A DNA stretch of 64,000 bases. It comes from Rhodospirillales bacterium. GTDB taxonomy: Bacteria; Pseudomonadota; Alphaproteobacteria; ATCC43930; CGMCC-115725. Where the stretch lies: positions 1 to 64,000 of the forward strand of contig DAHUYF010000019.1 of the NCBI GenBank assembly GCA_027315365.1, written 5' to 3'. Below are positions 39,802-56,285 of this stretch, in pieces (positions within the stretch are counted from its first letter, which is position 1; each line of letters begins with the position of its first letter). The notes below the pieces were generated by a model. It was given only the letters and a program-made list of their open reading frames with translations. It did no database searches and was not told where the DNA came from. The position numbers were made by a program, and so were the translations under genes.

Positions 39802-39813
39802 GGTTAAACCGAT

Positions 39814-39853
39814 CCGTCATAAAATTGCAACAAAATAGTCGTAAGCATGCAAC
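39814..39853 (+). promoter_or_regulatory. Candidate Pho box before pstS
   Basis: Four 7-nt units spaced by 4 nt occur in register: CCGTCAT-AAAA-TTGCAAC-AAAA-TAGTCGT-AAGC-ATGCAAC. The 11-bp period and the sequence of the first units (CTGTCAT in the consensus) are those of PhoB half-sites, so two overlapping Pho boxes may be present. It lies about 85-125 nt before the pstS GTG in an otherwise GC-rich region, as expected for PhoB activation of the pst operon. Confidence 0.6.
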
Positions 39854-39937
39854 CGGGTGCCTGTAGCCAAGGGCAGCGAAGCGCCGCGCCGGGATGGAAA
39901 TCCGGTGGCGCCAACCCACCCCGTGAGGAGAACACCC

Positions 39938-41002
39938 GTGCAGGCTCGTAGCAGAATGACGCTTTGGCTCGGCGCTCTCGCCCTTCTGGGCGCGGCGATC
40001 CAGCCTACGCTCCAGGCCCGGGCGGCCGAGATCGCCGGCGCCGGCGCCACCTTTCCGTTCCCGATCTACGCCAAATGGGCCGAGGCCTATAAGGCCAAGA
40101 CCGGCGTCAGCATGAACTACCAGTCGATCGGCTCCGGCGGCGGCATCAAGCAGATCGAGTCGAAGACCGTCGATTTCGGCGCCTCGGATATGCCGCTGCA
40201 GCCGGCGGAACTCGAGAAGCATGGCCTGACCCAGTTTCCCGCGATCATGGGCGGCGAGGTGCTGGCGATCAATCTGCCCGGACTGAGGGCCGGCGAAATG
40301 ACCCTCGACGGTCCGACCGTTGCCGATATCTACCTCGGCAAGATCACGAAATGGAACGATCCGGCGATCGCCAAGCTCAATCCCGGGGTCAAGCTGCCGT
40401 CCACGGCCATCGCGGTCGTGTATCGCTCGGACGGATCGGGCACGACCTTCATCTTCACCGATTATCTCTCCAAGGCGAGCTCCGAATGGAAGGACAAAGT
40501 CGGCGAAAACACCTCGGTCGAATGGCCGGCGGGGATCGGCGGCAAGGGCAATGAGGGCGTAGCGGCGCTCGTCTCGCGCACCATGGGGGCCATCGGCTAC
40601 GTCGAATACGCCTATGCCGTCCAGAACAAGCTCGTCTATACCAAGCTCATCAACAAGGACGGCAGCGCCCTCCTGCCCAGCAGCCAGACCTTCCAGGCGG
40701 CGGCGGCCAATGCCGATTGGGCGAAGGCGCCGGGCTTCTATCTGCTGCTGACGGACCAGCCGGGCAAGGAGAGCTGGCCGATCTCGGGCGCGAGCTTCAT
40801 CCTGATGTATAAGCAGCAGGCGAAGCCGCAGGTCGCCAAGTCGGTGCTCGATTTCTTCGCCTGGTCCTTCGCCAACGGGCAGAAGATGGCCGAGGAACTG
40901 GTCTACGTGCCGATGCCCGCCACCGTTGTGAAGGTCATCGAGGCCTCGTGGTCCGCCAACATAAAGGACGCCGCCGGCAAGCCCGTCTGGCAGGCGCAGT
41001 AG
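39938..41002 (+). CDS. pstS: Phosphate ABC transporter periplasmic binding protein PstS
   Basis: A 354-residue high-affinity phosphate binder. The signal peptide covers about 30 residues (MTLWLGALALLGAAIQPTLQ, then ARA). The mature part begins EIAGAGATFPFPIYAKWAEAY, then MNYQSIGSGGGIKQI and FGASDMPL, with RSDGSGTTFIFTDYLSKAS supplying phosphate-binding Ser/Thr/Arg/Asp residues. A GTG at 39938 lies 7 nt behind GAGGAG, which decides the start over the ATG at 39956. It is first in pstSCAB-phoU-phoB. Confidence 0.95.
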   Translation: MQARSRMTLWLGALALLGAAIQPTLQARAAEIAGAGATFPFPIYAKWAEAYKAKTGVSMNYQSIGSGGGIKQIESKTVDFGASDMPLQPAELEKHGLTQFPAIMGGEVLAINLPGLRAGEMTLDGPTVADIYLGKITKWNDPAIAKLNPGVKLPSTAIAVVYRSDGSGTTFIFTDYLSKASSEWKDKVGENTSVEWPAGIGGKGNEGVAALVSRTMGAIGYVEYAYAVQNKLVYTKLINKDGSALLPSSQTFQAAAANADWAKAPGFYLLLTDQPGKESWPISGASFILMYKQQAKPQVAKSVLDFFAWSFANGQKMAEELVYVPMPATVVKVIEASWSANIKDAAGKPVWQAQ

Positions 41003-41021
41003 TCGATCCCGGCGCGCCGGC

Positions 41022-41987
41022 ATGACCAGCACACTGACCGTCACCCTCCGCCGCCGGCTCGACCGCCAGCGCGTGCAGGACGCCGCCTTCCGCGGCACCA
41101 CCCGCCTCTTCGCCTTGGGCGTGCTGGTGCTGATGGGCGGGGTGGTGGCGGCGCTGGCTGCCGGCGCGATCCCGGCCTTCGCCAAATTCGGTTGGTCCTT
41201 CCTGACGAGCGACGCCTGGAACCCGGTAACGGAGAAGTTCGGCGCTCTCCCCGCCATCTACGGCACGCTCGTCACCTCCTTCATCGCCATGCTGATCGGC
41301 ATCCCGCTGGCGCTCGGCATCGCCGTCTTCCTGACCGAACTCTGCCCGCTGCCGCTGCGCCGTCCGATCGGCACGCTGATCGAGCTGCTGGCTGCGGTCC
41401 CCAGCATCATCTACGGCATCTGGGGCCTGTTCGTGCTGGCGCCGGTGCTGCAAAACACCGTGCAGCCGTTCCTGGTCGACACCTTGGGCGAAGTGCCGAT
41501 GATCGGCGCGCTCTTCGCCGGGCCGCCGCTCGGCCTCGGCATTCTCACCGCCGGCCTGATCCTGGGGGTCATGGTATTGCCGTTCATCGCCGCGGTGATG
41601 CGCGACGTGTTCTCGACCGTGCCGCCGATGCTGCGCGAAAGCGCCTACGGCGTCGGCGCCACCACCGCCGAGGTGATGCGCCATATCGTGCTGCCCTATA
41701 CGCGGGTCGGCGTCATCGGCGGCATCATGCTGGGCCTCGGCCGCGCGCTGGGCGAGACCATGGCCGTCACCTTCGTCATCGGCAACGCGCACCGCATCAA
41801 GGCCTCGCTGCTGGCGCCGGGGACGACGATCTCGGCGACGCTCGCCAACGAGTTCACCGAGGCGGTGGGCGATCTCTACACCTCCTCGCTCTTCGCGCTG
41901 GGCTTCATCCTCTTCGTCATCACCTTCATCGTGCTCGCCGCCGCCAAGCTGATGCTGCTGCGGCTCGAGCGCCGCGCGGCCAAATGA
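41022..41987 (+). CDS. pstC: Phosphate ABC transporter permease PstC
   Basis: A 321-residue inner-membrane permease with six predicted helices. The conserved regions are [31 protein letters not shown], the [17 protein letters not shown] segment, and the coupling helix [29 protein letters not shown]. It pairs with PstA to carry phosphate. Its TGA overlaps the pstA start (ATGATG). Confidence 0.95.
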
Positions 41988-42838
41988 TGCGCATCAGCGG
42001 CCTCTACGCGCGCCGGCGCGCGGTCAACGGCGTCTATCTCGCCCTCTCCGTGGCGGCGACGGCGACCGGTCTCGCCGTCCTGTTCCTCATCCTCTGGACG
42101 CTGCTGCGCAACGGCATCCCGGCGCTGGGCTCGGACCTCTTTACCGAGACCACGCCGCCCCCAGGCAGCCGCGGCGGCATCGCCAATGCGATCTATGGCA
42201 GCGTCGTCATGACGCTGGTCGCGACGCTGGTGGGCACCCCGGTCGGCGTGCTGACCGGCACATACCTCGCCGAGTTCGGCGCCGGCAGCCGCATCGCGCC
42301 GGTGGTGCGCTTCGTCAACGACATCCTGCTGAGCGCGCCGTCGATCATCATCGGCCTTTTCGTCTACGAGCTGATGGTGGTGCGGATGGGCCATTTCTCG
42401 GCCTGGGCCGGCTCGGCGGCGCTCGCCATCCTGGTCGTGCCCGTGGTGGTGCGCACCACCGAGGACATGCTGCGTCTGGTCCCGGGGAGCCTGCGCGAGG
42501 CCGCCGCGGCGCTCGGTGCGCCGCAATGGAAAGTGATTGCGGCGGTGATCTACCGCGCCGCCCTCCAGGGAATGCTGACCGGCGTCATGCTGGCGGTGGC
42601 GCGGATCGCCGGCGAGACGGCGCCGCTGCTCTTCACCGCGCTCAACAACCAGTTCTGGTCCGCCGACATGAACGGGCCGATGGCCAACCTGCCGGTGGTC
42701 ATCTTCCAATTCGCGCTCAGCCCCTACGCCGATTGGCAGGTGCTCGCCTGGGGCGGCGCGACGCTGATCACCATCGCCGTCCTGATGCTCAACATCCTCG
42801 CCCGCGCCCTCGCCAGCTGGAGCAATCGCTCGCCATGA
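41984..42838 (+). CDS. pstA: Phosphate ABC transporter permease PstA
   Basis: A 284-residue permease. The N-terminal helix is followed by a [34 protein letters not shown] segment, the [15 protein letters not shown] region and the coupling helix [33 protein letters not shown], all family hallmarks. The start ATG 41984 (or the second ATG at 41987) overlaps the pstC stop. Its TGA in turn overlaps the pstB ATG (ATGA). Confidence 0.95.
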
Positions 42839-43686
42839 CCGCCGACACCTCGCTGACCGCCGCGCCGCCGCGCGCGCCGACCCTGGGCCGTCCCGTCGTC
42901 CGTCCGCAGGAGCCTGCCGCCGTGGCCCAGACCGCCCCCAAGGTCGTGATCAAGGACGTCCATTTCTATTACAAGGCCTACGAAGCGCTCAAAGGCATCA
43001 GCCTGGCGCTGCACGACAAGCGCGTCACCGCCTTCATCGGCCCCTCGGGCTGCGGCAAGTCGACCCTGCTGCGCATTCTCAACCGCATCTACGAGCTCTA
43101 TCCCGGCCAGCGTGCCACGGGCGAGGTGCTGGTCGACGGCAACAACATCCTCGACCCCGGTCAGGACCTCAACCTGCTGCGGGCCAAGATCGGCATGGTG
43201 TTCCAGAAACCGACGCCGTTTCCGATGTCGATCTACGACAATGTCGCCTTCGGCATCCGCCTCTACGAGCGAACCTCGACGAGCGAGCTCGACGAGCGCG
43301 TCGAGAACGCGCTCAGGCGGGCGGCGCTGTGGGACGAGGTCAAGGACAAGCTGCGCCAGAGCGGCCTCTCGCTCTCCGGCGGCCAGCAGCAGCGACTCTG
43401 CATCGCCCGCGCCATCGCCGTGAAACCGGAGATCCTGTTGCTCGACGAGCCCGCCTCGGCGCTCGACCCGATCTCGACCCAGCGCATCGAGGAACTCATC
43501 GGCGAGCTCAAATCCGACTACTGCATCGCCATCGTCACGCACAACATGCAGCAGGCGGCGCGCAGCTCCGACTATACCGCCTTCATGTATCTGGGCGAGC
43601 TCGTCGAATACAGCGAGACGGAGACGATCTTCACCCACCCCCGGGAGAAGCAGACCGAGGACTACATCACCGGCCGCTTCGGTTGA
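42835..43686 (+). CDS. pstB: Phosphate ABC transporter ATP-binding protein PstB
   Basis: A 283-residue ATPase. A variable N-terminus of about 35 residues precedes [23 protein letters not shown]. Walker A is GPSGCGKST, the Q-loop is [18 protein letters not shown] (very characteristic of PstB), the signature is [14 protein letters not shown] and Walker B is [12 protein letters not shown]. The switch His lies in [13 protein letters not shown]. It also takes part in signalling phosphate sufficiency to PhoR via PhoU. Confidence 0.96.
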
Positions 43687-43696
43687 GGAGGATCCC

Positions 43697-44443
43697 ATGG
43701 CCTCAGAGCATATCATCAAGAGCTACGACGAGGAGCTGCAGCGCCTCGACAACACCCTGACCCAGATGGGCGGCATCGCCGAGAGCCAGCTCGGCGCCGC
43801 CATCGAGGCGGTGGTCAAGCGCGACAGCGACCTCGCCACCGAGGTGATCGAGGGCGACGTCCGCGTCGACACGCTCGAGCGCGAGATCGAGGCCCTGGTG
43901 GTGCGTCTCCTGGCGCTGCGCCAGCCCATGGCGCGCGACCTCAGGCAGTCGATCGCCGCGCTCAAGATCGCCAGCGACCTCGAGCGTATCGGCGACTATG
44001 CCGCCAACGTCGCCAAGCGCTCGATCGCGCTCAACCAGACGCCGCCGGTGCGGCCCGTCTATGCCGTGCCGCGCATGGGCAAGCTCTGCCAGGCGATGAT
44101 CAAGGACATGCTCGACGCTTATGTCGAGCGCGACGCCGACAAGGCGCTGGCGGTGTGGCTGCGCGATGAAGAGCTGGACGAGATGTACACCAGCCTCTTC
44201 CGCGAGCTCCTGACCTATATGATCGAGGACCCTCGCAACATCACCGCCTGCACCCATCTGCTGTTCATCGCCAAGAATCTGGAGCGCGTCGGCGACCACA
44301 CCACCAATATCGCGGAGACGCTCTACTTCCTCGTGCACGGCACACCGCTCGCCCAGGCGCGGCCCAAGGGGGACCGCTCGAGCCTCGCCGTCGTGCGCGG
44401 CGGCCCGGTCAGAGGCGAGCCCGAGAAGGAGGAGGACGCTTGA
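43697..44443 (+). CDS. phoU: Phosphate signalling regulator PhoU
   Basis: A 248-residue protein of two three-helix bundles. IIKSYDEELQRLDNTLTQMGGIAESQLGAAIEAVVKRD and the repeated metal-binding D/E-x-x-x-E/D signatures in each half (DLERIGDYAANVAKR and NLERVGDHTTNIAE) identify it. It links PstB to PhoR so that PhoR is silenced when phosphate is high. GAGGAGGATCCC lies upstream. It overlaps the phoB start. Confidence 0.95.
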   Translation: MASEHIIKSYDEELQRLDNTLTQMGGIAESQLGAAIEAVVKRDSDLATEVIEGDVRVDTLEREIEALVVRLLALRQPMARDLRQSIAALKIASDLERIGDYAANVAKRSIALNQTPPVRPVYAVPRMGKLCQAMIKDMLDAYVERDADKALAVWLRDEELDEMYTSLFRELLTYMIEDPRNITACTHLLFIAKNLERVGDHTTNIAETLYFLVHGTPLAQARPKGDRSSLAVVRGGPVRGEPEKEEDA

Positions 44444-45135
44444 TGCGGCCCTTGGTGCTGGTGGTCGAGGACGAGCCGGCGCTCGTCACCTTGCTGCGCT
44501 ACAATCTCGAGCGCGAAGGCTTCGCCGTCAGCGAAGCGCATGACGGCGAGGAAGCCCTGCTGCAGCTCCGCGAAAGCAAGCCCGACGCGGTGCTGCTCGA
44601 CTGGATGCTGCCGCGCATCTCCGGTCTCGAGGTGTGCCGCCAGATCCGTCGGGCCCCCGCCTGGCGCGACCTGCCGGTGATCATGCTGACCGCGCGCGGC
44701 GAGGAAGGCGACCGGGTGCGCGGCCTCGACAGCGGCGCCGACGACTATGTCGTGAAGCCGTTCTCGCCGGGCGAGCTCATCGCCCGCCTGCGCGCCGTCA
44801 TCCGCCGAGTGCGGCCGGTGACGACGGCGGAGACGCTGCGCTTTGCCGACATCGTCATGGATCTGTCCGCCCATCGCGTCGCGCGCGCCAACGCGGCGAT
44901 CCATCTCGGCCCGACCGAGTTCCGCCTGCTGCGCTTCTTCCTGGAGCGGCCGGGCCGCGTCTTCTCGCGCGAACAGCTGCTCGACGGCGTCTGGGGGCGC
45001 GAGGCGGAGGTCGAGCTGCGCACCGTCGACGTGCATATCCGCCGGCTGCGCAAGGCGCTCAACGACAGCGGCCGCAGCGACGTCATCCGCACCGTCCGCG
45101 CCGCCGGCTACGCCCTCGACGCCAGCGACGCATAG
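44443..45135 (+). CDS. phoB: Phosphate-regulon response regulator PhoB
   Basis: A 230-residue OmpR/PhoB-family activator. The receiver has acidic residues in LVVEDEPALV, phospho-acceptor Asp53 (VLLDWMLPRISGLEV), a conserved Thr (MLTARGEEGDRVRGLDSGADDYVVKPFS) and Lys. The winged-helix DNA-binding domain (LGPTEFRLLRFFLERPGRVFSREQLLDGVWG) ends VDVHIRRLRKALN. It binds Pho boxes such as the one at 39814. The ATG at 44443 overlaps the phoU stop; TTG 44440 is an alternative. Confidence 0.95.
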   Translation: MRPLVLVVEDEPALVTLLRYNLEREGFAVSEAHDGEEALLQLRESKPDAVLLDWMLPRISGLEVCRQIRRAPAWRDLPVIMLTARGEEGDRVRGLDSGADDYVVKPFSPGELIARLRAVIRRVRPVTTAETLRFADIVMDLSAHRVARANAAIHLGPTEFRLLRFFLERPGRVFSREQLLDGVWGREAEVELRTVDVHIRRLRKALNDSGRSDVIRTVRAAGYALDASDA

Positions 45136-45213
45136 CCGTCCTTGCGACCGGGCGGCGGCGGAGGTTAGCCTCTCCGGCCGGCGGCGATGTCCCGCCGGCG
45201 CGAGGAGACAGCG

Positions 45214-46065
45214 ATGCCAGAGACCATCGCCATCATCGCCCCGGGCGAGATGGGCGGCGCCACCGGCCGAAGGCTCAGGGAACACGGCGCCCGCATCCTC
45301 ACCTCGCTCGCCGGCCGCAGCCCCGCGAGCGCGGCGCGCGCCGCGCGGGCCGGCTTTGTGGTCATCGACGACCCCGCGCTTATGGTGGAGGAATCGGCGC
45401 TACTGCTGTCGATCGTGCCGCCGGGCGAGGCGCTGGACGTGGCCGAGCGCTTCGCGCCGGTGCTCGCCGCGGCGCGGCGCAAGCCGGTCTTCGTCGACTG
45501 CAATGCCGTCTCGCCTGCGACCGCGCGGCGCATCGGCACCGTCATCGCCGCGGCCCGGTGCCGCTTTGCCGATGCCGGCATCATCGGCCCGCCGCCCTCG
45601 CCCGGGGCGCGGACCGTCTTCTATGCCTCGGGCGAGGCGGCGCCGGATCTCGCGCCGCTCGGCGCGCTCGGCCTCGACCTGCGCGTGCTGGCCGCCCCGG
45701 TCGGCGCCGCCTCGGCGCTGAAGATGTCCTATGCCGGCCTCACCAAGGGGATATCCGCGCTGGGATCGGCCATGGCGCTGGGCGCGGCGCGCGACGGCAC
45801 GACCGACGCGCTGATCGCCGAGCTGCGCGACAGCCAGCCGCATCTGCTGCCCTATCTGGCGCGGCTTCCGACACTCTTCCCCAAGGCCTATCGCTGGGTT
45901 GCCGAGATGGAGGAGATCGCCGATTTCCTCGCCGGCGACGCGGCGGCGCAGGAGCTCTATCGCGCCATGGCGCGGCTCTACCAGCGTCTGGCGGCGGGCG
46001 CCGCGGCGCCCGAGGCGGGCGAGCTGGCGGCCATCGCCGCGTTCGCCGGCAAGGCCGCGCCCTGA
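45214..46065 (+). CDS. NAD(P)-dependent oxidoreductase, 6PGDH-like (DUF1932 C-terminal)
   Basis: A 283-residue dehydrogenase. The Rossmann motif ETIAIIAPGEMGGATGRRLREHG is that of 6-phosphogluconate / hydroxyisobutyrate dehydrogenase-like enzymes. LLLSIVPPGEALDVAERF and FADAGIIGPPP follow. The catalytic Lys region reads ALKMSYAGLTKGISALGSAM, and the C-terminal helical DUF1932 domain includes PTLFPKAYRWVAEMEEIADFL. The substrate is unknown. The ATG at 45214 is preceded by GAGGAGACAG; an upstream in-frame ATG at 45187 is less likely. It could be the upstream neighbour of the sugar operon, but a 128-nt gap with its own AT-rich patch separates them. Confidence 0.85.
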   Translation: MPETIAIIAPGEMGGATGRRLREHGARILTSLAGRSPASAARAARAGFVVIDDPALMVEESALLLSIVPPGEALDVAERFAPVLAAARRKPVFVDCNAVSPATARRIGTVIAAARCRFADAGIIGPPPSPGARTVFYASGEAAPDLAPLGALGLDLRVLAAPVGAASALKMSYAGLTKGISALGSAMALGAARDGTTDALIAELRDSQPHLLPYLARLPTLFPKAYRWVAEMEEIADFLAGDAAAQELYRAMARLYQRLAAGAAAPEAGELAAIAAFAGKAAP

Positions 46066-46193: not shown

Positions 46194-47183
46194 ATGGCAC
46201 CTCAAGGGGACGTGCCGTTGCAAGGTAATGTCGATGTCGACGCCGGGACGCTCGAGCGCCTCTATCGCGGCCTCCGGCGCATCCGCCGGGTCGAGGAAGA
46301 GGTCGCGCGGCTCTATCCCAGCGACAAGATCAAGAGCCCCGTCCACCTCTCGATCGGGCAGGAGGCGATCGCCGTCGGCGTCTGCGATCCGCTGCGGGCG
46401 GACGATGTGGTGGCGCCCACCTATCGCGGCCATGCGGCCTATCTCGCCAAGGGCGGCGATCTCAACGGGATGATGGCCGAGCTCTACGGCAAGGTCGGCG
46501 GCTGCGCCCGCGGCAAGGGCGGCTCGATGCATCTGATCGGCATGGAGCGCTTCATCCTTGGCGCCTCCGCCGTCGTCGGCACCACCATCCCGCTGGCGCT
46601 GGGCTTTGCCCTGGCGCTGAAGCGCGAGGGCAAGGGCCGCATCGCGGTGGCGTTCTTCGGTGACGGCGCGACCGAGGAAGGCGTGTTCTACGAGAGCCTC
46701 AATTTCGCCGCCCTGCATCGGTTGCCGCTGCTTTTCGTCTGCGAGAACAATTTCTTCGCCATCCACACGCCGCTGGAGAAGCGCTGGGCGACCGATCGGC
46801 TGTGCGAGCGGGTGGCGACCTACGACATTCCGACCACCAAGATCAGCGACGGCGACGTGATCAAGATCCATGCCTGGACCACGGAAAGCGCCGCGGCGCT
46901 GCGTACCGGCGCCGGTCCGCGCTTCCTCGAATGCCACGCCTGGCGCTGGCGCGAGCACGTCGGCCCGGGCGAGGATTACGACGCCGGCTACCGCGCGCGC
47001 GCCGATCTCGCGGCCTGGCAGCAGAACGACCCGGTCGAGCGCATCGGCGGACGCATCGCCGCGCCCGTCCGCGCCGCCGTCGACGCCGCGATCGAGCGCG
47101 AGATCGCCGATGCCGTGGCGTTCGCCGAGGCCAGCCCCTTCCCGGATGCCGAGGAGCTCACCGCTCATGTCTTCGCGGAGTGA
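46194..47183 (+). CDS. PDH-E1-like alpha subunit (ThDP enzyme) of the sugar operon
   Basis: A 329-residue thiamine diphosphate enzyme subunit resembling the alpha chain of 2-oxoacid dehydrogenase E1. It has PVHLSIGQEAIAVG, YRGHAAYLAKGGDLNGMMAELYGK, GCARGKGGSMHLIG with the conserved His, and the ThDP/Mg motif GDG (156-158) through ENN (184-186). No E2 or E3 gene lies nearby. PDH-E1-like pairs without E2 are known from octose biosynthesis, where they transfer a two-carbon unit from pyruvate onto a keto-sugar (avilamycin AviB1/AviB2 are, from memory, such a pair). Location at the head of a sugar operon suggests that role. GGAG lies 8 nt ahead of the ATG. Confidence 0.85.
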   Translation: MAPQGDVPLQGNVDVDAGTLERLYRGLRRIRRVEEEVARLYPSDKIKSPVHLSIGQEAIAVGVCDPLRADDVVAPTYRGHAAYLAKGGDLNGMMAELYGKVGGCARGKGGSMHLIGMERFILGASAVVGTTIPLALGFALALKREGKGRIAVAFFGDGATEEGVFYESLNFAALHRLPLLFVCENNFFAIHTPLEKRWATDRLCERVATYDIPTTKISDGDVIKIHAWTTESAAALRTGAGPRFLECHAWRWREHVGPGEDYDAGYRARADLAAWQQNDPVERIGGRIAAPVRAAVDAAIEREIADAVAFAEASPFPDAEELTAHVFAE

Positions 47184-48264
47184 GGCCGCGGCCCCGTTGC
47201 GCGCGGCGGCGCCGGAACGCCGGCTGCGCTATGTCGAGGCGCTGAACGAGGCGGTAGCGCAGGAGATGGCGCGCGATCCTCGCGTCTTCATCTTCGGACT
47301 CGATGTCGACGACCACAAGGGCATCCAGGGCTCGACCGTCGGGCTGCAGCAGCGCTTCGGCCGCGACCGCGTGTTCAACACGCCGCTCTCCGAGGACGCG
47401 ATGACCGGCGTCGCCATCGGCGCCGCGATGGCCGGGATGCGGCCGATCCATGTGCATATCCGCATGGATTTCCTGATGCTGTGCATGAACCAGCTGGTCA
47501 ACATGGCGGCGAAGGCGCATTACATGTATGGTGGCGCGGTCAAGGTGCCGCTGGTGGTGCGCAGCATGATCGGCAAGTCCTGGGGCCAGGGGGCGCAGCA
47601 TTCCCAGGGGCTCCATGCCATGTTCATGCACGTGCCGGGGCTCAAAGTGGTGGCGCCGTCCAACGCGCATGACGCCAAGGGCTGCCTTATCGCCGCCATC
47701 CGCGACGACAACCCCGTGATCTTCGTCGAGCATCGCCTGCTCTACGGCACCGAGGCGGCGGTGCCGGAGGTGCCTTACGCCACGCCATTCGGCCAGGCGC
47801 GCATCATGGGTCGCGGCGACGATATCACCATCGTCGGCATCTCCAACATGGCGGTCGAGTGCTTGAGGGCGCGCGAGCTGCTGTCGGCGGCCGGCATCGC
47901 GGCGGAGATCATCGATCCGATCTCGCTGGTGCCGCTCGACATCGAGACCATCGCCGCTTCGGCGCGCCGCACCGGACGGTTGCTGGTCGTCGACAACGCC
48001 TGGATGACCTGCGGCGCCAGCGCCGAGATCGTCGCGCGCGTACTCGAACGGCTGGGCACCAGGGCGCTGCAGTCGGTCGGCCGCATGGGCTTTGCGCCGA
48101 CCACCTGCCCGACGACGCCGGCGCTGGAGCGGGAGTTCTATCCCAACCCCGCCACCATCGCCGAGCGCGCGCATCTGCTGGTGCGGCCGGATGCGCCGGC
48201 TTGGCGTCCCGCCGCCGAGGATGCCGCGCTCGCCTATCAGCTGCAGTTCCGCGGCCCCTTCTGA
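47167..48264 (+). CDS. PDH-E1-like beta subunit (ThDP enzyme) of the sugar operon
   Basis: A 365-residue beta chain. RLRYVEALNEAVAQEMARDPRVFIFGLDVDDHKG, the FNTPLSEDAMTGVAIGAAMAGMRPI block, MNQLVNMAAKAHYMYGGAVKVPLVVRSMIG, and WGQGAQHSQGLHAMFMHVPGLKVVAPSNAHDAKGCL match E1-beta. LLVVDNAWMTCGASAEIVARV lies in the C-terminal domain. It overlaps the alpha gene by 17 nt and forms the heterotetramer with it. The N-terminal 20 residues are extra. Function as for the alpha subunit: two-carbon transfer is an inference, oxidative decarboxylation as part of a PDH complex is unlikely. Confidence 0.85.
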   Translation: MSSRSEAAAPLRAAAPERRLRYVEALNEAVAQEMARDPRVFIFGLDVDDHKGIQGSTVGLQQRFGRDRVFNTPLSEDAMTGVAIGAAMAGMRPIHVHIRMDFLMLCMNQLVNMAAKAHYMYGGAVKVPLVVRSMIGKSWGQGAQHSQGLHAMFMHVPGLKVVAPSNAHDAKGCLIAAIRDDNPVIFVEHRLLYGTEAAVPEVPYATPFGQARIMGRGDDITIVGISNMAVECLRARELLSAAGIAAEIIDPISLVPLDIETIAASARRTGRLLVVDNAWMTCGASAEIVARVLERLGTRALQSVGRMGFAPTTCPTTPALEREFYPNPATIAERAHLLVRPDAPAWRPAAEDAALAYQLQFRGPF

Positions 48265-48280
48265 GCGGGATCACGACGCG

Positions 48281-49450
48281 ATGTTCTACGAGCTGGCGGC
48301 GAGCACCTGGGGCGAGGAAGAGCGCGACGCGATTCTCGCCGTGCTGGACAGCGGACGCTTCACCATGGGCAGCCGGGTGGCGGCTTTCGAGGAGGCGTTC
48401 GCCGGCTATCACGGCCGCAAATACGGCGTCATGGTCAATTCCGGTTCCTCGGCCAATCTCGTCGCCATCGCGGCGCTCTGCCACAGGCGCGAACGGCCGC
48501 TGCAGCGCGGCGACGAGGTCATCGTGCCGGCCATCTCCTGGGCCACGACGTATCACCCGCTGCACCAGTACGGCCTCAAGCTCCGCTTCGTCGACGTCGA
48601 GCTGGACACGCTCAACATGGATTGCAGCCAGCTCGAGCGCGCGCTCACGCCGCGCACGCGCGCGATCGTCGGCGTCAGCATTCTCGGCAATCCTGCCGCG
48701 CTCGACGTGATGCAGGCATTCGCCGACCGGCACGGGCTCTATTTCTTCGAGGACAATTGCGAGTCGGCCGATGCCGAGCTCGGCGGCCGCAAGGCCGGCG
48801 CCTTCGGCGACATGAGCAGCTTCAGCTTCTTCTTCTCGCATCACATCACCACCATGGAAGGCGGCATGGTGCTGACCGACGACCGGGAGCTGTTCGATCT
48901 GCTGCGCAGCCTGCGCAACCATGGCTGGACGCGCGACCTGCCGGCGGATACGACGCTGTTCGAGCGCGGCGCCAACGAGCATTTCGAGGCCTATCGCTTC
49001 ATCCTGCCCGGCTACAATGTCCGCCCGCTCGAGATCACCGCCGCCATCGGCCTGATCCAGCTCGGCAAGCTTGCCGGCATGACGGCGCAGCGGCGGCGGA
49101 ATCTGGCGTTGTTCCAGGCCAAATTCGCCGGCGACCGCCGCTTCATTATCCAGCGCGAGAACGGCAAGAGCTCGACCTTCGCCTTCACCATCATCCTCAA
49201 CCCCGAGCGCAGCGTCGACCGCGAGCGCGTGTTCGCGGCACTGCGCGAGGCGGATATCGGCTTCCGCATGATCACCGGCGGCAACTTCCTGCGCCACGAC
49301 GTGATCAAGTATTACGACTACACCACCGTGGGCGAGATGCGGAACGCCGACATCGCCCACGATTACGGCTTCTTCGTCGGCAACCACCCGCACGATCTCG
49401 CGCCGCAGATCGAGCGGCTGCACGCGGTCCTGGACGGCATATGCAACTGA
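48281..49450 (+). CDS. ColD/RfbH-like PLP-dependent nucleotide-sugar 3-dehydratase
   Basis: A 389-residue DegT/DnrJ/EryC1-fold protein. The cofactor site differs from aminotransferases: where the Schiff-base Lys is expected, the sequence reads SFSFFFSHHITTMEGG, placing His at 188. ColD (GDP-4-keto-6-deoxymannose 3-dehydratase) also has its active-site His at 188 and is 388 residues long; RfbH/E1 likewise has His. Other motifs are VNSGSSANLVAI, DEVIVPAISWATTYHP, EDNCESADAELGGRKAG and GYNVRPLEITAAIGLIQLGKL. It should remove the C3 hydroxyl of a 4-keto nucleotide sugar. The C-terminal half lacks the RfbH N-terminal iron-sulfur-partner features. It lies 16 nt after the E1-beta gene. Confidence 0.88.
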   Translation: MFYELAASTWGEEERDAILAVLDSGRFTMGSRVAAFEEAFAGYHGRKYGVMVNSGSSANLVAIAALCHRRERPLQRGDEVIVPAISWATTYHPLHQYGLKLRFVDVELDTLNMDCSQLERALTPRTRAIVGVSILGNPAALDVMQAFADRHGLYFFEDNCESADAELGGRKAGAFGDMSSFSFFFSHHITTMEGGMVLTDDRELFDLLRSLRNHGWTRDLPADTTLFERGANEHFEAYRFILPGYNVRPLEITAAIGLIQLGKLAGMTAQRRRNLALFQAKFAGDRRFIIQRENGKSSTFAFTIILNPERSVDRERVFAALREADIGFRMITGGNFLRHDVIKYYDYTTVGEMRNADIAHDYGFFVGNHPHDLAPQIERLHAVLDGICN

Positions 49451-49463
49451 GGCGGACAGCAGG

Positions 49464-50402
49464 ATGAGCTTCTCGATTCTCGTCACCGGCGGCGCCGGAT
49501 ATCTCGGCTCCACGCTGGTGCCGGCGCTACTGGCGGCCGGCCACAAGGTGACCGTGCTGGACAATTTCATGTTCCGGCAGAGCCCGCTCAACCAGCTCTG
49601 CGCCGAACCCGGATTCGACGTGGTGCGCGGCGACGCGCGCGACGACGCGGTGCTGCGCCCGCTGCTGCGGCAAACGGACATCTTCATCCCGCTGGCGGCG
49701 CTGGTGGGTGCGCCGCTCTGCGACAACGACAAGCAGGGGGCGGAAAGCATCAATCTCGGCGCGGTGCGCGCCGCCATCGCCCTGATGAGCCCGCAGCAGC
49801 GCATCCTGCTGCCGACCACCAACAGCGGCTATGGCATCGGCGAGCCCGGCCAGCACTGTACCGAGGAGACGCCGCTCCGGCCGATCAGCCTCTACGGCCG
49901 CACCAAGGTCGAGGCGGAGCGCGCCGCGCTCGACCGGGGCAACGCCATCAGCTTCCGGCTTGCCACCGTCTTCGGCATGTCGCCCCGCCTGCGCATCGAC
50001 CTGCTGGTGAACGATTTCGTCTATCGCGCCGTCACCGACCGCGCCCTTGTGCTGTTCGAGGCGCATTTCAAGCGCAACTACATCCATGTCCGCGACGTCG
50101 CCGGCGCCTTCCTGCATGGAATCGAGCACTTTGAAACCATGCGCGATCGGCCCTACAATGTCGGATTGTCGGATGCCAATTTGTCGAAGCTCGAGCTATG
50201 CCAGCGGATACAGGCCCACGTGCCGAAATTCGTATTCCTGGAGGCGCCGATCGGCGAGGACCCGGACAAGCGGGACTATATCGTCTCCAATGCCCGGATC
50301 GAAGCCACCGGCTTCCGGCCGCGCCATTCGCTCGATGACGGCATCCGCGAGCTGATCAAAGGCTACCGGATGATCCGGAACGCGGCCTACGGCAATGTGT
50401 GA
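49464..50402 (+). CDS. SDR-family nucleotide-sugar oxidoreductase/epimerase
   Basis: A 312-residue extended SDR. The NAD motif is GGAGYLG (9-15) and the catalytic pair is Tyr144 and Lys148 (YGRTK). The third site reads TTNSGYG (118-124) instead of the TDEVYG pattern of 4,6-dehydratases, so a dehydratase role is less likely. Other blocks are RLATVFGMSPRLRIDLLVNDFVY, FKRNYIHVRDVAGAF and YNVGLSDANLSKLEL. It is probably an epimerase or 4-keto reductase acting on the sugar made by its neighbours. It follows the ColD-like gene after 13 nt. Confidence 0.88.
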   Translation: MSFSILVTGGAGYLGSTLVPALLAAGHKVTVLDNFMFRQSPLNQLCAEPGFDVVRGDARDDAVLRPLLRQTDIFIPLAALVGAPLCDNDKQGAESINLGAVRAAIALMSPQQRILLPTTNSGYGIGEPGQHCTEETPLRPISLYGRTKVEAERAALDRGNAISFRLATVFGMSPRLRIDLLVNDFVYRAVTDRALVLFEAHFKRNYIHVRDVAGAFLHGIEHFETMRDRPYNVGLSDANLSKLELCQRIQAHVPKFVFLEAPIGEDPDKRDYIVSNARIEATGFRPRHSLDDGIRELIKGYRMIRNAAYGNV

Positions 50403-50439
50403 CCGGTTGGGATTCGGGGGAGAAGGGTAGAGGGGTCGG

Positions 50440-51966
50440 ATGGCGGAGAGTGGCGTCTATGTCCCGGAGGGCGATCGGCCGGATCTCGTCCTGATCAATC
50501 CAGGCGGCCGCGACAAGGTCTATCAGGCGCTGGGGACCGAGCTGACCGCGGTCGAGCCGCCGCTGTGGTGCCGGTTGCTGGCCAGCTATGTCCGCCATCG
50601 CGGCTACAGCGTCCGCATCATCGATTCGGAGGCGGAGAATTGGGGGCCTGAGACGGTGGCCGAAGCGGTGGCGCGACTCAACCCGCTTCTGGTCGGCATG
50701 GTCGTCTTCGGCCACCAGCCTTCCGCCTCGACCCAGATGATGGCCGGCGCCGGCGAGGCCTGTGCGGCGATCAAAGACCGCACCCCGGAGCAGAAGCTGA
50801 TCATCCTCGGCGGCCACGTATCGGCGCTGCCGGAGCGCACGCTGCGCGAGGAACGGGTCGACTTCGCGGCGATCGGCGAAGGCCCGCAGACGCTGCAGCA
50901 GCTCCTCGACGTGCTGCGCTCGGCAGAGCCGGAGCGGGTGGAAGGGGTGGCCGGGCTCGCCTATTGGAAGGATGGTGCGGTCGTCCTCAACCCGATGCCG
51001 CCGCTGATCGCCGATCTCGACGCCGATCTGCCGGGCGACACCTGGGACCTGCTGCCGATGCAGCGCTACCGCGCCCACAACTGGCAATGCTTCGGCGATC
51101 TGGCACGGCGCGTGCCCTACGCCTCGATCTACACCTCGCTCGGCTGCCCCTATAAATGCTCCTTCTGCTGCATCAACGCGCCGTTCGGCAAGTCCAACTA
51201 CCGTATGCGCAGCGCCGAAGCCGTGGTCGCCGAGATCGAGCATCTCTACCGCACCTATGGCGTGCGCACCTTCAAGATCATCGATGAGCTGTTCGTGCTC
51301 AACGACCGCCATGTCCGCGGCGTCTGCGAGGGGCTGATCGCGCGGGGATTCGCCGACGAGCTCAACATCTGGGCCTATGCGCGGCCCGACACGATCAAGC
51401 CGGCGCAGCTTGCGCTGCTGCGCAAGGCCGGCATCCGCTGGCTCGCGCTCGGCATCGAATCCGGCAGCAAGAAGGTGCGCGACGACGCCGACAAATCGCT
51501 CAAGAGCGACGACATCAAGGGCATCGTCGAGCAGATCCAGAAGGCCGGGATCCACATCATCGGCAACTACATCTTTGGCCTGCCCGAGGACGATCTCGAC
51601 ACCATGCGCGAGACCCTGGAGCTGGCCAAGGAGCTCAACACCGAATTCGCCAATTTCTATTCCGGCATGGCCTATCCGGGCTCGCGGCTCTACGATCAGG
51701 CGCTGGAGCTTCACTGGGAGCTGCCGCAGAGCTGGAGCGGCTACTCGCAGCACGCCTACGACGCCCAGCCGCTGCCGACCAAGCACCTTCCCGCCGCGGA
51801 GGTGCTGCGCTTTCGCGACGCGGCGTTTGACGAGTATTTCACCAACCCGCGCTACCTCGACATGGTCGCGCAGCGCTTCGGCCTCGAGACGCGGCGCCAC
51901 CTCGAGGCGATGACGCGGCACAAGCTCCGCCGCAAGCTGCTGGAGCCCGCGGCGGAGGTCGCGTGA
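50440..51966 (+). CDS. B12-binding-domain radical SAM enzyme
   Basis: A 508-residue class B-type radical SAM protein. The N-terminal region (about 15-160, Rossmann-like; LASYVRHRGYSVRIIDSE, VGMVVFGHQPSAS, LIILGGHVSALPE) has the cobalamin-binding fold but no DxHxxG motif, as is usual for this class. The SAM domain has CX3CX2C at Cys236, 240, 243 (GCPYKCSFCCINAPFG), then MRSAEAVVAEIEHL and LGIESGSKKVRDDADKSLK. Such enzymes methylate unreactive carbons or rearrange skeletons. In this operon C-methylation of the sugar is a reasonable guess. Its TGA overlaps the next GTG. Confidence 0.88.
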   Translation: MAESGVYVPEGDRPDLVLINPGGRDKVYQALGTELTAVEPPLWCRLLASYVRHRGYSVRIIDSEAENWGPETVAEAVARLNPLLVGMVVFGHQPSASTQMMAGAGEACAAIKDRTPEQKLIILGGHVSALPERTLREERVDFAAIGEGPQTLQQLLDVLRSAEPERVEGVAGLAYWKDGAVVLNPMPPLIADLDADLPGDTWDLLPMQRYRAHNWQCFGDLARRVPYASIYTSLGCPYKCSFCCINAPFGKSNYRMRSAEAVVAEIEHLYRTYGVRTFKIIDELFVLNDRHVRGVCEGLIARGFADELNIWAYARPDTIKPAQLALLRKAGIRWLALGIESGSKKVRDDADKSLKSDDIKGIVEQIQKAGIHIIGNYIFGLPEDDLDTMRETLELAKELNTEFANFYSGMAYPGSRLYDQALELHWELPQSWSGYSQHAYDAQPLPTKHLPAAEVLRFRDAAFDEYFTNPRYLDMVAQRFGLETRRHLEAMTRHKLRRKLLEPAAEVA

Positions 51967-52736
51967 GGGAAGCGGCGTCCGGCGATGCGGCGCGGCCCGC
52001 GTCGGAGCTCTCTCGCGTCGACGTCGCGGTGCTGGCAGGCGGGCTCGGCACGCGCCTGGCGACGCGGCTGGGCGAGTTGCCCAAGATCATGGCGCCGGCG
52101 GGCGGGCGTCCGTTCCTCGACCATCTCCTCGCTTGGCTCGCCGGCCAGGGCGTGCACCGCGTCGTGCTCTGCCTCGGCCATCGCGCCGCCCCCGTCCTCG
52201 ACCATCTCCGGCACTCGCCGCCCGCCGGCATCGAGGTCGTTTGCAGCGTCGAGCCCGAACCGCTGGGCACCGCCGGCGCCCTCGCCCACGCCCGGAAGCT
52301 GCTGACCAGCGATCCCGTGTTGGCGATGAACGGCGACACGCTGGCGGAGGTCGATCTCGCGGCGTTTCTCGCCGCATACCGCGCCGCGCGCGCCGGCATG
52401 GCGCTGGTCAGCGCCGCGGTCGACGAGCCCGGCCGCTATGGCAGGATCGAGATCGACGGCGACGGGAGGGTGCTGCGCTTTCGCGAGAAGTCGCAGGCCG
52501 AGGCGCCGCCCTATTGGATCAGCGCCGGGATATACCTGCTCGACCGGGCGACGCTCGACGAGATCGCCGCACTGGGCCGCGGCTCGCTCGAGCACGATTT
52601 CTTCGAGCGCCGGCCGGCGGGCTCTCTCTTCGCCTTTCGCATCGCCGGGCGCTTCCTCGATATCGGCACGCCGGAGACGCTGGCGCTGGTGCGCGACGGC
52701 GTCGGCGCCTACGCCGCAAGCCCTGACGCGCGATGA
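51963..52736 (+). CDS. HddC-like sugar-1-phosphate nucleotidyltransferase
   Basis: A 257-residue nucleotidyltransferase. The nucleotide loop is VLAGGLGTRLATRLGELPKIMAP (signature GGLGTRL 26-32, Lys41) and the metal motif is NGD (123-125). PPYWISAGIYLLDR and GSLEHDFFERRPAG follow, and FLDIGTPETLALVRDG ends it. Together with the HddA-like kinase this resembles D-glycero-alpha-D-manno-heptose-1-phosphate guanylyltransferase (HddC), although other NDP-hexose pyrophosphorylases share the fold. The GTG at 51963 overlaps the preceding stop; its own stop overlaps the kinase ATG by 4 nt. Confidence 0.85.
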   Translation: MREAASGDAARPASELSRVDVAVLAGGLGTRLATRLGELPKIMAPAGGRPFLDHLLAWLAGQGVHRVVLCLGHRAAPVLDHLRHSPPAGIEVVCSVEPEPLGTAGALAHARKLLTSDPVLAMNGDTLAEVDLAAFLAAYRAARAGMALVSAAVDEPGRYGRIEIDGDGRVLRFREKSQAEAPPYWISAGIYLLDRATLDEIAALGRGSLEHDFFERRPAGSLFAFRIAGRFLDIGTPETLALVRDGVGAYAASPDAR

Positions 52737-53737
52737 TCATCAGCCGCACCCCCTTCCGCATCTCGCTGTTCGGCGGCGGCACCGACTATCCCGCCTGGTA
52801 CCGCCGGAATGGCGGCGCGGTGGTCGGGACCACGATCAACAAATACTGCTACATCAGCCTCAGGGCGCTGCCGCCCTTCTTCGAGCACCGCCATCGCATC
52901 GCCTATTCCAAGATCGAGACGGTCAGGGAGATCGCCGATATCCAGCACCCGGCGGTGCGCGCCGTGCTGCAACAGCTCGAGGTCAAGGAAGGCCTCGAGA
53001 TCCATCACGACGGCGATCTTCCGGCGCGCTCGGGGCTGGGATCGAGCTCGGCCTTCACCGTCGGCCTCCTCAACGCGATCTCGGCGCTGCGCGGCCGGAT
53101 GGTCACGGCGCGCGAGCTGGCCGCCGAGGCGATCCGCATCGAGCAGGAGGTGCTGCAGGAAAGCGTCGGGTCCCAGGACCAGGTCTGGGCGGCCTATGGC
53201 GGCACCAGCGTCATCAACTTCCTGCCGGACGGCACCTTCCAGGTGACGCCCCTGATCATGAGCGCCGAGCGACGCAAGGAGCTGCAGGCGTCGCTGGCGC
53301 TCTATTTCACCGGCCTGTCGCGCTTCGCGCCGAGCATCGCCGCCAAGCAGATCGCCAATTTCGACGCCCGCGAGCAACAGTTGCGGGCGATGGCGTCGAT
53401 GGTGCCCGAGGCGGTTGCGATCCTCGGCGACGAGCGGCGGCCGCTCAGCGAGATCGGCACGCTGCTGCACGAGAGCTGGCAATTGAAGCGACAGCTCGCC
53501 GATGCCGTGTCGACGCCGGCGATCGACGATATCTACGAGGCCGGGCGCGCCGCCGGCGCGCTCGGCGGCAAGCTGCTCGGCGCCGGCGGCGGCGGCTTCC
53601 TTCTGTTCTTCATCGATCCCGCGAAGCGGGCGGCGCTGCGCGAGCGGCTCGGCACGCTGATCGAGGTGTCGGTCGAGATCGGCAGCGCCGGCAGCAAGAT
53701 CGTCGTCTACGAGCCCTCGGGCCTCGAGAACAGCTGA
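52733..53737 (+). CDS. HddA-like D,D-heptose-7-phosphate / sugar kinase (GHMP family)
   Basis: A 334-residue GHMP kinase. MIISRTPFRISLFGGGTDYPAWYRRNGG opens it, as in HddA and fucokinase-like proteins. The ATP loop is DLPARSGLGSSSAFTVGLL (GLGSSS 101-106), and the C-terminal motif is KLLGAGGGGFLLFF. HddA phosphorylates D-glycero-D-manno-heptose-7-phosphate at C1 on the way to GDP-heptose. It overlaps the nucleotidyltransferase by 4 nt and ends the operon. No gmhA or gmhB lies in the window. A different C7 or C6 sugar substrate is possible. Confidence 0.87.
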   Translation: MIISRTPFRISLFGGGTDYPAWYRRNGGAVVGTTINKYCYISLRALPPFFEHRHRIAYSKIETVREIADIQHPAVRAVLQQLEVKEGLEIHHDGDLPARSGLGSSSAFTVGLLNAISALRGRMVTARELAAEAIRIEQEVLQESVGSQDQVWAAYGGTSVINFLPDGTFQVTPLIMSAERRKELQASLALYFTGLSRFAPSIAAKQIANFDAREQQLRAMASMVPEAVAILGDERRPLSEIGTLLHESWQLKRQLADAVSTPAIDDIYEAGRAAGALGGKLLGAGGGGFLLFFIDPAKRAALRERLGTLIEVSVEIGSAGSKIVVYEPSGLENS

Positions 53738-53758: not shown

Positions 53759-54763
53759 TCAAAGCTCCGGCTTCTTGCGGTAGAGCCAGTCGTCGGTCGC
53801 CGGAATGCCGCGCGCCGGCGGCACGCCCTCTTCGACCGGGCGGTGGCGCAGGAGCCGCAGGCCGCGGCGCGCGACCTGGCGGAAGAAGGCGGCCGGCCGG
53901 CGCGGATAGGTGACCAGCGCCCCCGCCAGATAGACGACCGCGCTCGGATAGCGTCCGGCATAGAAGCGGGCGGCCGCCTCTTCCATGCGAAGCCCCGCCT
54001 TGAAACGGGCGGCGGCCCAGAATCCGCGCCGGCGCATCGCCGCCAGATGCTTGGCGCGCAGGCGACCGAGCGCCGCATGGACGGACTCGGCGTTCACCGT
54101 CTCGGCGATGAAGACCCGCGCCAGCGGCTCGCCGACGACAACCAGATCGTGCTGCGTCGTGTAGCGCAGCAGCCAGTCCCAATCCTCCAGCCGGCGCAGG
54201 CTCTCGTCGAAGAGGCCGTGGATGTCGAAGGCGCGACGGCGAATGAACGCGGTCGAGCCTGGGCTCAAGGTGCAGCCGCCCAACAGCGTGTCGCGCCAGG
54301 GTGCGCTGCTTTGCGGGATTCTCGCCGTCACCTCGCGCGAGCGCTCGCGCATCATCCAGTAGCCGCTGCAGCACATCAGCACCTCTTCCGGCGCCGCCGC
54401 CAGGCAGGCGACCTGCCGCTCGAGCTTCTCGGGCAGCCATTCATCGTCGGAATCTAGGAAGGCGATGAACTCGCCGCGGGCGGCCCGGATGGCGGTGTTC
54501 CGCGCCGCCGCCGCTCCGCGGTTGACCTCATGGCGCAGGAGGCGCAGACGCGGATCGGCGCCCCGGGCCAGCAGCCGCGCCGCGGTGCCGTCCGTCGAGG
54601 CGTCATCGACCACCAGCAGCTCGAAATCGCCATGGGTCTGCCGTAGCACGCTGTCGACCGCGCGGTCGACAAGCCCTTCGCGGTTGTGGACGGGGATGAC
54701 GACGCTGACCTGGGGCAAAGCGGCCGGGACACGCAAGGGGTTGGCACAGGCGGCGGATTCCAC
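53759..54763 (-). CDS. Family 2 glycosyltransferase
   Basis: A 334-residue inverting GT-A glycosyltransferase. The start of the fold is VSVVIPVHNREGLVDRAVDSVLRQTHGDFELLVVDDASTDGT. VNRGAAAARNTAIRAARGEFIAFLDSDDEW has the metal-binding DSD. The acceptor region (LRRLEDWDWLLRYTTQHDLVVV) has the ED motif. The last 100 residues are basic and probably membrane-associated. The GTG at 54763 is my best start; TTG downstream or other codons upstream are possible, and no ribosome site stands out. It is convergent with the kinase, 21 nt apart, and is a candidate to use the sugar made by that operon. Confidence 0.85.
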   Translation of the reverse strand: MESAACANPLRVPAALPQVSVVIPVHNREGLVDRAVDSVLRQTHGDFELLVVDDASTDGTAARLLARGADPRLRLLRHEVNRGAAAARNTAIRAARGEFIAFLDSDDEWLPEKLERQVACLAAAPEEVLMCCSGYWMMRERSREVTARIPQSSAPWRDTLLGGCTLSPGSTAFIRRRAFDIHGLFDESLRRLEDWDWLLRYTTQHDLVVVGEPLARVFIAETVNAESVHAALGRLRAKHLAAMRRRGFWAAARFKAGLRMEEAAARFYAGRYPSAVVYLAGALVTYPRRPAAFFRQVARRGLRLLRHRPVEEGVPPARGIPATDDWLYRKKPEL

Positions 54764-54908
54764 CAGAAATCCGGAGGCGGTGCAACTTGCCCGGCCGGGG
54801 GCTTGGTGGCGGCGGTTGACCGGTCTCGGACCGGGGCTAAGCTGGCGCGGAAAAGAAACGCCGTGCCGATCACGGCGGGCCGGCCGAGCGGCAGAGGAGG
54901 GGAGTCGG

Positions 54909-56285
54909 ATGGCCCAGGACGGTATCGTCGAGGTTTCGCAGTTCATCGATCAGCGCGGGGTCGGCCGGTTCCAGCTGTTCGTCGCGGTGCTCTGCGCGCT
55001 GGCCGTGTTCATGGATGGTTTCGACACGCAGATGGTCGGCTATGTGCTGCCGGCGATCGCGCGCTCGCTGCAGATCGAGCCCGCCGCCCTGACCTCGGTG
55101 GTGGTCAGCGGCCTCGTCGGGCTGATGGCCGGCGCGCTGATCTTCGGTCTCGTGGCCGATCGCATCGGGCGCAAATCGGTCATTATCTTCTGCCTCGTCT
55201 TCTTCGGCCTGGCCATGCTGCTGACGCCGACGGCCGACACCGTGGCGGGGCTGGGCATCTGGCGGTTTCTCACCGGCCTCGGCCTCGGCGGCGCGATGCC
55301 GAACGCGATCGCGCTGACCGCGGAATATTCGCCGCGGCGCAGCCGCGCCACCATGGTGATGATGATGTTCTTCGGTTTCTCCTTCGGCGCGGCGGTCGCC
55401 GGCTTCGCCACCGCGGCGCTGATCGAGCGCTTCGGCTGGCCGGCGGTGTTCTATTCCGGCGCGGCGCTGCCGATCCTGTTTGCGCCGGTGCTGGCGGCGG
55501 CGCTGCCGGAATCGATCCGCGTGCTGGCGCTGCGCGGGACGCAAGCCTCGCGTATCGCGCTGCTGCTCGCGCGCATCGACCCGGCACGGTCGCCCGCCGC
55601 GGGCGCGCGCTTCGTCATCGCCGAGGAGAACGAGGCCGGCGGCCTGCCGCTGCTGCATCTCTTCCGCGAGCGCCGCGCGCTCTCGACCGTGCTGTTGTGG
55701 ATCATGTTCTTCATGAACCTGCTCTGCCTCTTCTTCCTCGCCACCTGGCTGCCCACGGTGATCCATGGCAAGGGCCTGTCGCTGGCAACGGCGGCGGTCG
55801 CCACCGCGTTGCTGCAAATCGGCGGCTGCACCGGGACGCTCTGCTTCGGCCCGCTGGTTGATCGCTTCGGTGCCTTCGCCGTGCTGTCGGTGACCTATCT
55901 CGGCGCGGCGGTCTTCGTCGCGCTGGTCGGCATTTCCGGCACGCTCGCGCCGGTGATCATGCTGACCGTCTTCGCCGCGGGCTTCTGCATTGTCGGCGGG
56001 CAGAACGCAATGAACGCGCTCGCCGCGACGCTCTATCCCACTGCCATCCGCTCGACCGGGGTCGGCTGGGCGCTCGGCATCGGCCGCATCGGCACCATGG
56101 CGGGCTCGGCGATGGGCGGCGCGCTGCTCGCGCGCCATCTGCCTATTCCGACGGTCTTCACGCTGGCGGCGCTGCCCGCGCTCTGTACCGCGGCCGCGAC
56201 CTTCGCCCTCGGCCGCGCCGAGCGCCGGCGCCAGGGACGGTCGGGGCAAGCTGATTTCGCGCCGAGCGGCGCCGCGGCCGGCTGA
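54909..56285 (+). CDS. MFS transporter, aromatic acid:H+ symporter (AAHS) type
   Basis: A 458-residue 12-helix transporter. The first-helix motif AVFMDGFDTQMVGYVLPAIARSL contains the DGFD signature of AAHS transporters (PcaK/BenK type). GLVADRIGRKSVII is the MFS loop 2-3 motif, and RFLTGLGLGGAMPNAIALTAEYSPRRSRATMVMMMF matches the family. It probably imports an aromatic or related carboxylate. The ATG at 54909 is preceded by GAGGAGGGGAG. It begins the plus-strand catabolic pair with the deacylase and is divergent from the glycosyltransferase. Confidence 0.9.
   Translation: MAQDGIVEVSQFIDQRGVGRFQLFVAVLCALAVFMDGFDTQMVGYVLPAIARSLQIEPAALTSVVVSGLVGLMAGALIFGLVADRIGRKSVIIFCLVFFGLAMLLTPTADTVAGLGIWRFLTGLGLGGAMPNAIALTAEYSPRRSRATMVMMMFFGFSFGAAVAGFATAALIERFGWPAVFYSGAALPILFAPVLAAALPESIRVLALRGTQASRIALLLARIDPARSPAAGARFVIAEENEAGGLPLLHLFRERRALSTVLLWIMFFMNLLCLFFLATWLPTVIHGKGLSLATAAVATALLQIGGCTGTLCFGPLVDRFGAFAVLSVTYLGAAVFVALVGISGTLAPVIMLTVFAAGFCIVGGQNAMNALAATLYPTAIRSTGVGWALGIGRIGTMAGSAMGGALLARHLPIPTVFTLAALPALCTAAATFALGRAERRRQGRSGQADFAPSGAAAG

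Follow-up and report, generated by a model that had tools for sequence, protein, structure and literature searches.

The gene at positions 48281-49450 (forward strand) of the stretch of DNA analysed here, a 64,000-nucleotide window from a Rhodospirillales bacterium, encodes a 389-residue protein of the ColD family in which the PLP lysine of aminotransferases is replaced by histidine. We propose, with a probability of about 0.72, that this protein is a PLP/PMP-dependent, histidine-based GDP-4-keto-heptose 3-dehydratase, and that it acts within an operon for the synthesis of a 3-deoxy, C4-branched heptose. In the proposed pathway, GDP-heptose would be converted to its 4-keto form and then to the 3-deoxy-4-keto sugar, which would receive a two-carbon branch at C4. 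The gene set is widespread and apparently unreported so far, and it predicts a widespread bacterial class of C4-branched 3-deoxy-heptoses. With this proposal, a clade of DegT-family dehydratases that is currently annotated as aminotransferase only gains a specific predicted reaction.

The operon consists of seven co-directional genes (46194-53737, all on the forward strand), with intergenic gaps of -17 to +37 bp. It opens with a gene for an E1 alpha-type TPP subunit (46194-47183; 329 residues), which scores 180 bits against human PDH E1 alpha and adjoins the dehydratase in many relatives, followed by one for an E1 beta-type subunit (47167-48264; 365 residues) with the Transket_pyr and Transketolase_C domains (PF02779 and PF02780). 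These two genes overlap by 17 bp, and the second ends 16 bp before the dehydratase gene. Downstream of the dehydratase are, in order, a homologue of the GDP-heptose C4-dehydrogenase Cj1427 (49464-50402; 312 residues; an SDR protein), a B12-binding radical SAM protein (50440-51966; 508 residues; PF02310 and PF04055), an HddC-like sugar-1-phosphate guanylyltransferase (51963-52736) and an HddA-like GHMP heptose-phosphate kinase (52733-53737). A preliminary description of this DNA had stated that neither gmd nor a transaminase gene lies next to the dehydratase; this is correct, as its neighbours include neither a Gmd-family dehydratase nor another gene of the DegT family, and the same description did not include the Cj1427-type gene directly downstream, the E1 pair directly upstream or the radical SAM gene. 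A convergent GT2 glycosyltransferase gene (53759-54946, reverse strand; PF00535) shows no conservation with the module and is possibly unrelated to it. A HIBADH-like gene at 45187-46065 was rejected as an operon member, since it is not conserved with the module either. Directly upstream lies a pho/pst cluster (38422-45135) with genes for a sensor kinase, PstS, permeases, PstB, PhoU and PhoB.

The reading frame of the dehydratase is open and coding (GC3 0.88), and its product is assigned to the DegT fold family. In comparisons with PDB entries, it scores 365 bits against ColD (2gms; E 3.7e-108; about 45-50% identity), as opposed to 173.5 bits against DdhC/RfbH and at most 138 bits against any aminotransferase, and the earlier classification as a ColD-type dehydratase is thus borne out. 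The four-cysteine [2Fe-2S] set of RfbH is incomplete, with residues other than Cys in three of the four columns, while the fourth is common to all ColDs; against the RfbH model the protein scores 268 bits, under the 423-bit cut-off. Alignment places the first His of an SHH motif at the position of the aminotransferase Lys. This replacement had been recognised before but was assigned to position 188, which is the ColD numbering; the residue in the window protein is H187, and it aligns with the residue changed in the H188N and H188K structures of ColD (3b8x and 2r0t). H187 is invariant in all 48 members of the clade described below and in 40 of 40 colitose-type ColDs, and H188 is kept in 47 of the 48 clade members, with Gln in the other one. 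We are nearly certain that the protein is a 3-dehydratase of the ColD type.

The mechanism of ColD-type enzymes has been reviewed (PMC8987622). In the window enzyme, the sugar would form a Schiff base with PMP, H187 would abstract a proton, the C3 hydroxyl would be lost and hydrolysis would follow, with PMP being regenerated from glutamate. Although the protein is like ColD in its fold family, in the SHH motif with His for Lys and in having no RfbH cysteine set, it differs at 18 clade-specific positions, for example T332 for Val, H339 for Asn and Y238 for Phe. Fixed differences between heptose-type and colitose-type proteins occur at positions 238 (Y/F), 330 (mostly I, M in the window protein, versus P), 332 (T/V), 339 (H/N) and 360 (H/D). 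Judging from the alignment, these five positions are candidates for residues that govern the choice of substrate.

How could a relative of ColD obtain a 4-keto sugar with no Gmd at hand? We predict that the Cj1427-type SDR supplies the 4-keto group. This protein scores 370 bits against the Cj1427 entries in the PDB (6vo6/6vo8), one of which is titled as a complex with NADH and GDP-D-glycero-D-mannoheptose, and its predicted structure matches that of Cj1427 with a TM score of 0.93-0.94 at 53-54% identity (best chains). Its motif reads TNSGY (SSEVFG in the Gmd-like protein of the related locus L031), and it was rejected as a missing 4,6-dehydratase because it lacks the catalytic Glu of those enzymes and is Cj1427-like. 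Cj1427 oxidises C4 of GDP-D-glycero-D-mannoheptose with recycling by alpha-ketoglutarate (PMC10680097), and on the precedent of its homologues the window SDR would likewise oxidise C4 of GDP-heptose. In Campylobacter HS:2, Cj1427 feeds an epimerase and a reductase, whereas the window SDR adjoins a 3-dehydratase and a TPP pair.

A precedent also exists for the next step. The C3-dehydratase of C. jejuni HS:5 is PLP- and glutamate-dependent and acts on GDP-6-deoxy-4-keto-heptose, and Cj1427 together with this enzyme produces GDP-D-glycero-3-deoxy-4-keto-heptose in vitro, with an ion at m/z 616.08 reported for GDP-3-deoxy-4-keto-heptose (PMC10680097). In the window, such a pair seems to occur naturally within one operon, as an apparent counterpart of a C4-dehydrogenase and 3-dehydratase pairing so far put together in vitro from Campylobacter parts. 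The likeness to this C. jejuni enzyme (HS5.12) lies in the reaction: the window protein is predicted to carry out, as HS5.12 does, a PLP/Glu-dependent C3 deoxygenation of a GDP-4-keto-heptose (PMC10680097). The natural substrate of HS5.12, however, is a 6-deoxy sugar from a 4,6-dehydratase, while the sugar delivered by the C4-dehydrogenase of the window is predicted to keep its 6-OH.

The activating genes had been described as heptose-type, and this holds for the best PDB relatives of both the kinase and the nucleotidyltransferase, though both proteins stay under the NCBIfam cut-offs. For the guanylyltransferase, these relatives are 5xhw/6jq8 of the 6-deoxy-mannoheptose pathway (120 bits), and its NCBIfam matches are mannose-1-P guanylyltransferase at 136 bits (top) and HddC at 113 bits, both under cut-off. 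For the kinase they are 3k85, 4usm and 4n3o, and HddA is the best NCBIfam model, again under cut-off. GmhA- and GmhB-like genes are found elsewhere in the genome of the window, with scores that are also under the cut-offs, and GmhA is near the module in four clade loci (L029, L034, L061 and L072).

Heptose-type and colitose-type dehydratases form separate groups, with one change each and support of 92-96, in a tree of 104 proteins made by a quick method, with 48 heptose-type and 40 colitose-type rows and with the Campylobacter HS:5 dehydratase left out. The two groups also keep different company. Near the 48 heptose-type genes, a Cj1427-like SDR occurs at 41 loci, the kinase at 34, the nucleotidyltransferase at 22, the radical SAM protein at 23, an E1 pair at 29, a split transketolase at 9 and Gmd at 2. 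At 39 colitose-type loci, on the other hand, the SDR, kinase, nucleotidyltransferase, radical SAM protein and E1 pair are all absent, a split transketolase is found at 3 and Gmd at 37; the characteristic partners there are Gmd and ColC, as against C4-dehydrogenase, heptose activation and TPP pair in the heptose-type clade. The window protein thus lies outside the colitose ColDs, both by its clade and by its partners (Gmd at 2/48 versus 37/39 loci). The earlier proposal that it acts on a 4-keto heptose gains support from the Cj1427-like neighbour, the heptose activation genes, the separate clade and the lack of a gmd over cut-off, and on these sequence grounds a heptose is very probably the substrate.

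Members of the clade occur in Alpha-, Beta- and Gammaproteobacteria, four of them on Azospirillum plasmids, and also on contigs labelled Myxococcota, Acidobacteriota, Elusimicrobiota, Nitrospirota and Campylobacterota, several of which are MAGs whose labels may err. Among 398 Pseudomonadota genomes sampled, three besides that of the window have a clade member (64-68% identity); in 74 searched genomes of a small-genome family, no clade member above 51% identity was found. Two genomes of the window's own family (L031, 7354-13878, and L032) show the order E1 alpha-E1 beta-ColD (about 40%)-Gmd-like; next in L031 comes a fusion of a guanylyltransferase with a HAD phosphatase. This arrangement suggests that the pathway also exists in a 6-deoxy-heptose form. 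A Bdellovibrionia contig (L080, 10001-12092) has a deep-branching ColD, outside both main clades, beside a 50%-identical Cj1427-like SDR.

The proposed branching step depends on the TPP enzyme. The E1 alpha subunit carries the TPP motif GDG-X26-NN at residue 156, and the E1 beta subunit scores 290 bits against the NCBIfam model of PDH E1 beta, under the cut-off. Enzymes of the E1 type normally feed a lipoyl E2. In the window operon, no E2 partner gene was seen, and an E1 alpha/beta pair that has the TPP motif and no E2 in its operon is what would be expected of a sugar-branching enzyme of the E1 type. Against the proposed pathway, the window operon shows no obvious side-chain reductase. A second E1 beta copy elsewhere in the genome, 43% identical, may be the housekeeping E1. 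Across the clade, 38 of 48 loci have either an E1 pair or a split transketolase, and no locus has both. The chance of finding no overlap is 5.5e-5 if kinship is ignored; on the tree there are seven switches, but only four independent contrasts lie on well-supported branches, and these give p 0.125 in a sign test. Ten clade loci have neither type, most of them short or cut near the gene. Weaker E1-like genes are present in two loci with no counted TPP pair (L056 and L059).

Pairs of this kind have been implicated in sugar branching before. For Plm8/Plm9 of paulomycin biosynthesis, a role in attaching a two-carbon chain derived from pyruvate has been proposed and has genetic support (PMC4802897), and EvdU5/EvdS3 of everninomicin biosynthesis have likewise been proposed to add a pyruvate-derived two-carbon unit to a 4-keto sugar (PMC10338323). 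Like the window pair, these are PDH-E1-like heterodimers encoded beside deoxysugar genes, but they belong to pathways for hexoses or pentoses of antibiotics, while the window pair is predicted to serve a GDP-heptose pathway. YerE, too, is encoded beside deoxysugar genes and adds a pyruvate-derived two-carbon unit to a 4-keto sugar; it is of the acetolactate-synthase type and acts on a CDP-hexose. By analogy with the E1-type pairs, the window enzyme would decarboxylate pyruvate on TPP and join the resulting two-carbon unit to the sugar at its C4 ketone, and we consider it likely that the TPP pair does perform the branching. In two other loci (L086, 4.9-9.9 kb, and L087, 1.2-6 kb), a split transketolase pair neighbours a 3-dehydratase of the RfbH (CDP-sugar) type, which is a hint that CDP-sugar clusters, too, carry out C2 branching once the sugar has been 3-deoxygenated.

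If the protein were an ordinary colitose-type ColD, it would act on GDP-4-keto-6-deoxymannose made by a distant gmd, and both its degree of identity to ColD and the shared catalytic motif would agree with such a role, as would the gmd genes found elsewhere in three of four related genomes. Considering that the genome of the window (99.25% complete) has no gmd over the TIGR01472 cut-off (best match 81 versus 415 bits), that the same is true of another genome with a clade gene (G086, 97% complete), that the window operon has no ColC-like gene, and that the linked Cj1427-type gene sets the clade apart (41/48 versus 0/39), this assignment seems improbable. The best gmd-like matches, beside an aminotransferase (C166) and beside an apparent RmlA-type gene (C186), were rejected as Gmd. 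The preliminary description had named strong grouping with ColDs of colitose clusters, or a gmd elsewhere with equal activity on the mannose derivative, as findings that would refute its reading; as far as sequence can show, neither refutes it, since the dehydratase falls in its separate 48-locus clade and no gmd over cut-off turned up in either genome. Less credible still is the view that the protein works as an aminotransferase and yields a 4-amino heptose. The DegT fold family would accommodate it, but all clade members have His in place of the PLP lysine, and an added Lys as well as an added Asn were reportedly needed to make an aminotransferase of ColD.

A different doubt concerns the end product. 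Perhaps the operon makes a plain 3-deoxy-heptose, the ketone being reduced by an unlinked reductase and the E1 pair being engaged otherwise; a role for the pair outside sugar chemistry is possible. Campylobacter makes 3,6-dideoxyheptoses with a dehydratase, an epimerase and a C4-reductase, in a published pathway that has no TPP enzyme (PMC10680097), and at 13 clade loci there is a GDP-fucose-synthase-like reductase whose role could be just to reduce C4. It is nevertheless difficult to reconcile this idea with a TPP pair near the gene at so many clade loci, in two distinct types that never co-occur, and with an operon in which no E2 partner was seen. Moreover, L028, which has no TPP pair close to the gene, carries an E1 beta of the same type (72%) elsewhere in its genome, on a different contig. 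We therefore regard the plain sugar as an unlikely product, and favour the C4-branched 3-deoxy-heptose.

What might the radical SAM protein add to the branched sugar? It carries the motif CPYKCSFC at residue 236, and its nearest folds by Foldseek are AprD4 (6fd2) first, and also TsrM and OxsB. Among curated families it is nearest to HpnJ (167 bits) and BchE (159 bits), both under cut-off. BchE carries out an isocyclic ring closure. The hopanoid cyclitol ether is the product of HpnJ (PMC12583986), which acts on a hopanoid glucosamine. Nearness to these two enzymes suggests that the window protein may form a ring, with methylation or deoxygenation equally possible; it would make a further change to the sugar, perhaps a ring closure.

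One known sugar has a skeleton of this kind. Caryose, from Trinickia (Pseudomonas) caryophylli, is a 4,8-cyclo-3,9-dideoxynonose (PMC9026286), and can be drawn as a heptose with a 3-deoxy position, an acetyl group at C4 and a C7-C8 bond, a likeness drawn post hoc by comparing gene content with structure. If the operon made such a sugar, the acetyl carbons from pyruvate would become C8 and the C9 methyl, and the B12-radical-SAM protein would join C7 to C8, closing a five-membered carbocycle. That a carbocyclic nonose of the caryose type is the product is a tentative idea that we consider rather unlikely, but it offers a concrete gene set for caryose-like sugars and, with it, a possible explanation of the way in which rare surface sugars with nine carbons, caryose among them, are assembled. 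The literature searched contained nothing on caryose biosynthesis or on the branching of GDP-heptose. If the idea is true, the operon would be the first example of how enzymes make a carbocyclic surface sugar of the caryose kind, it would be present across several phyla, and the transketolase variant would give hydroxylated side chains.

As for the use of the sugar, four loci (L028, L030, L040 and L114) have genes for TPR/GT41 glycosyltransferases close to the module, and the module of L027 (2374-7691) is beside fliF and a MotA/ExbB-family gene. These neighbours may mean that the sugar is used for glycosylation of protein, namely flagellin.
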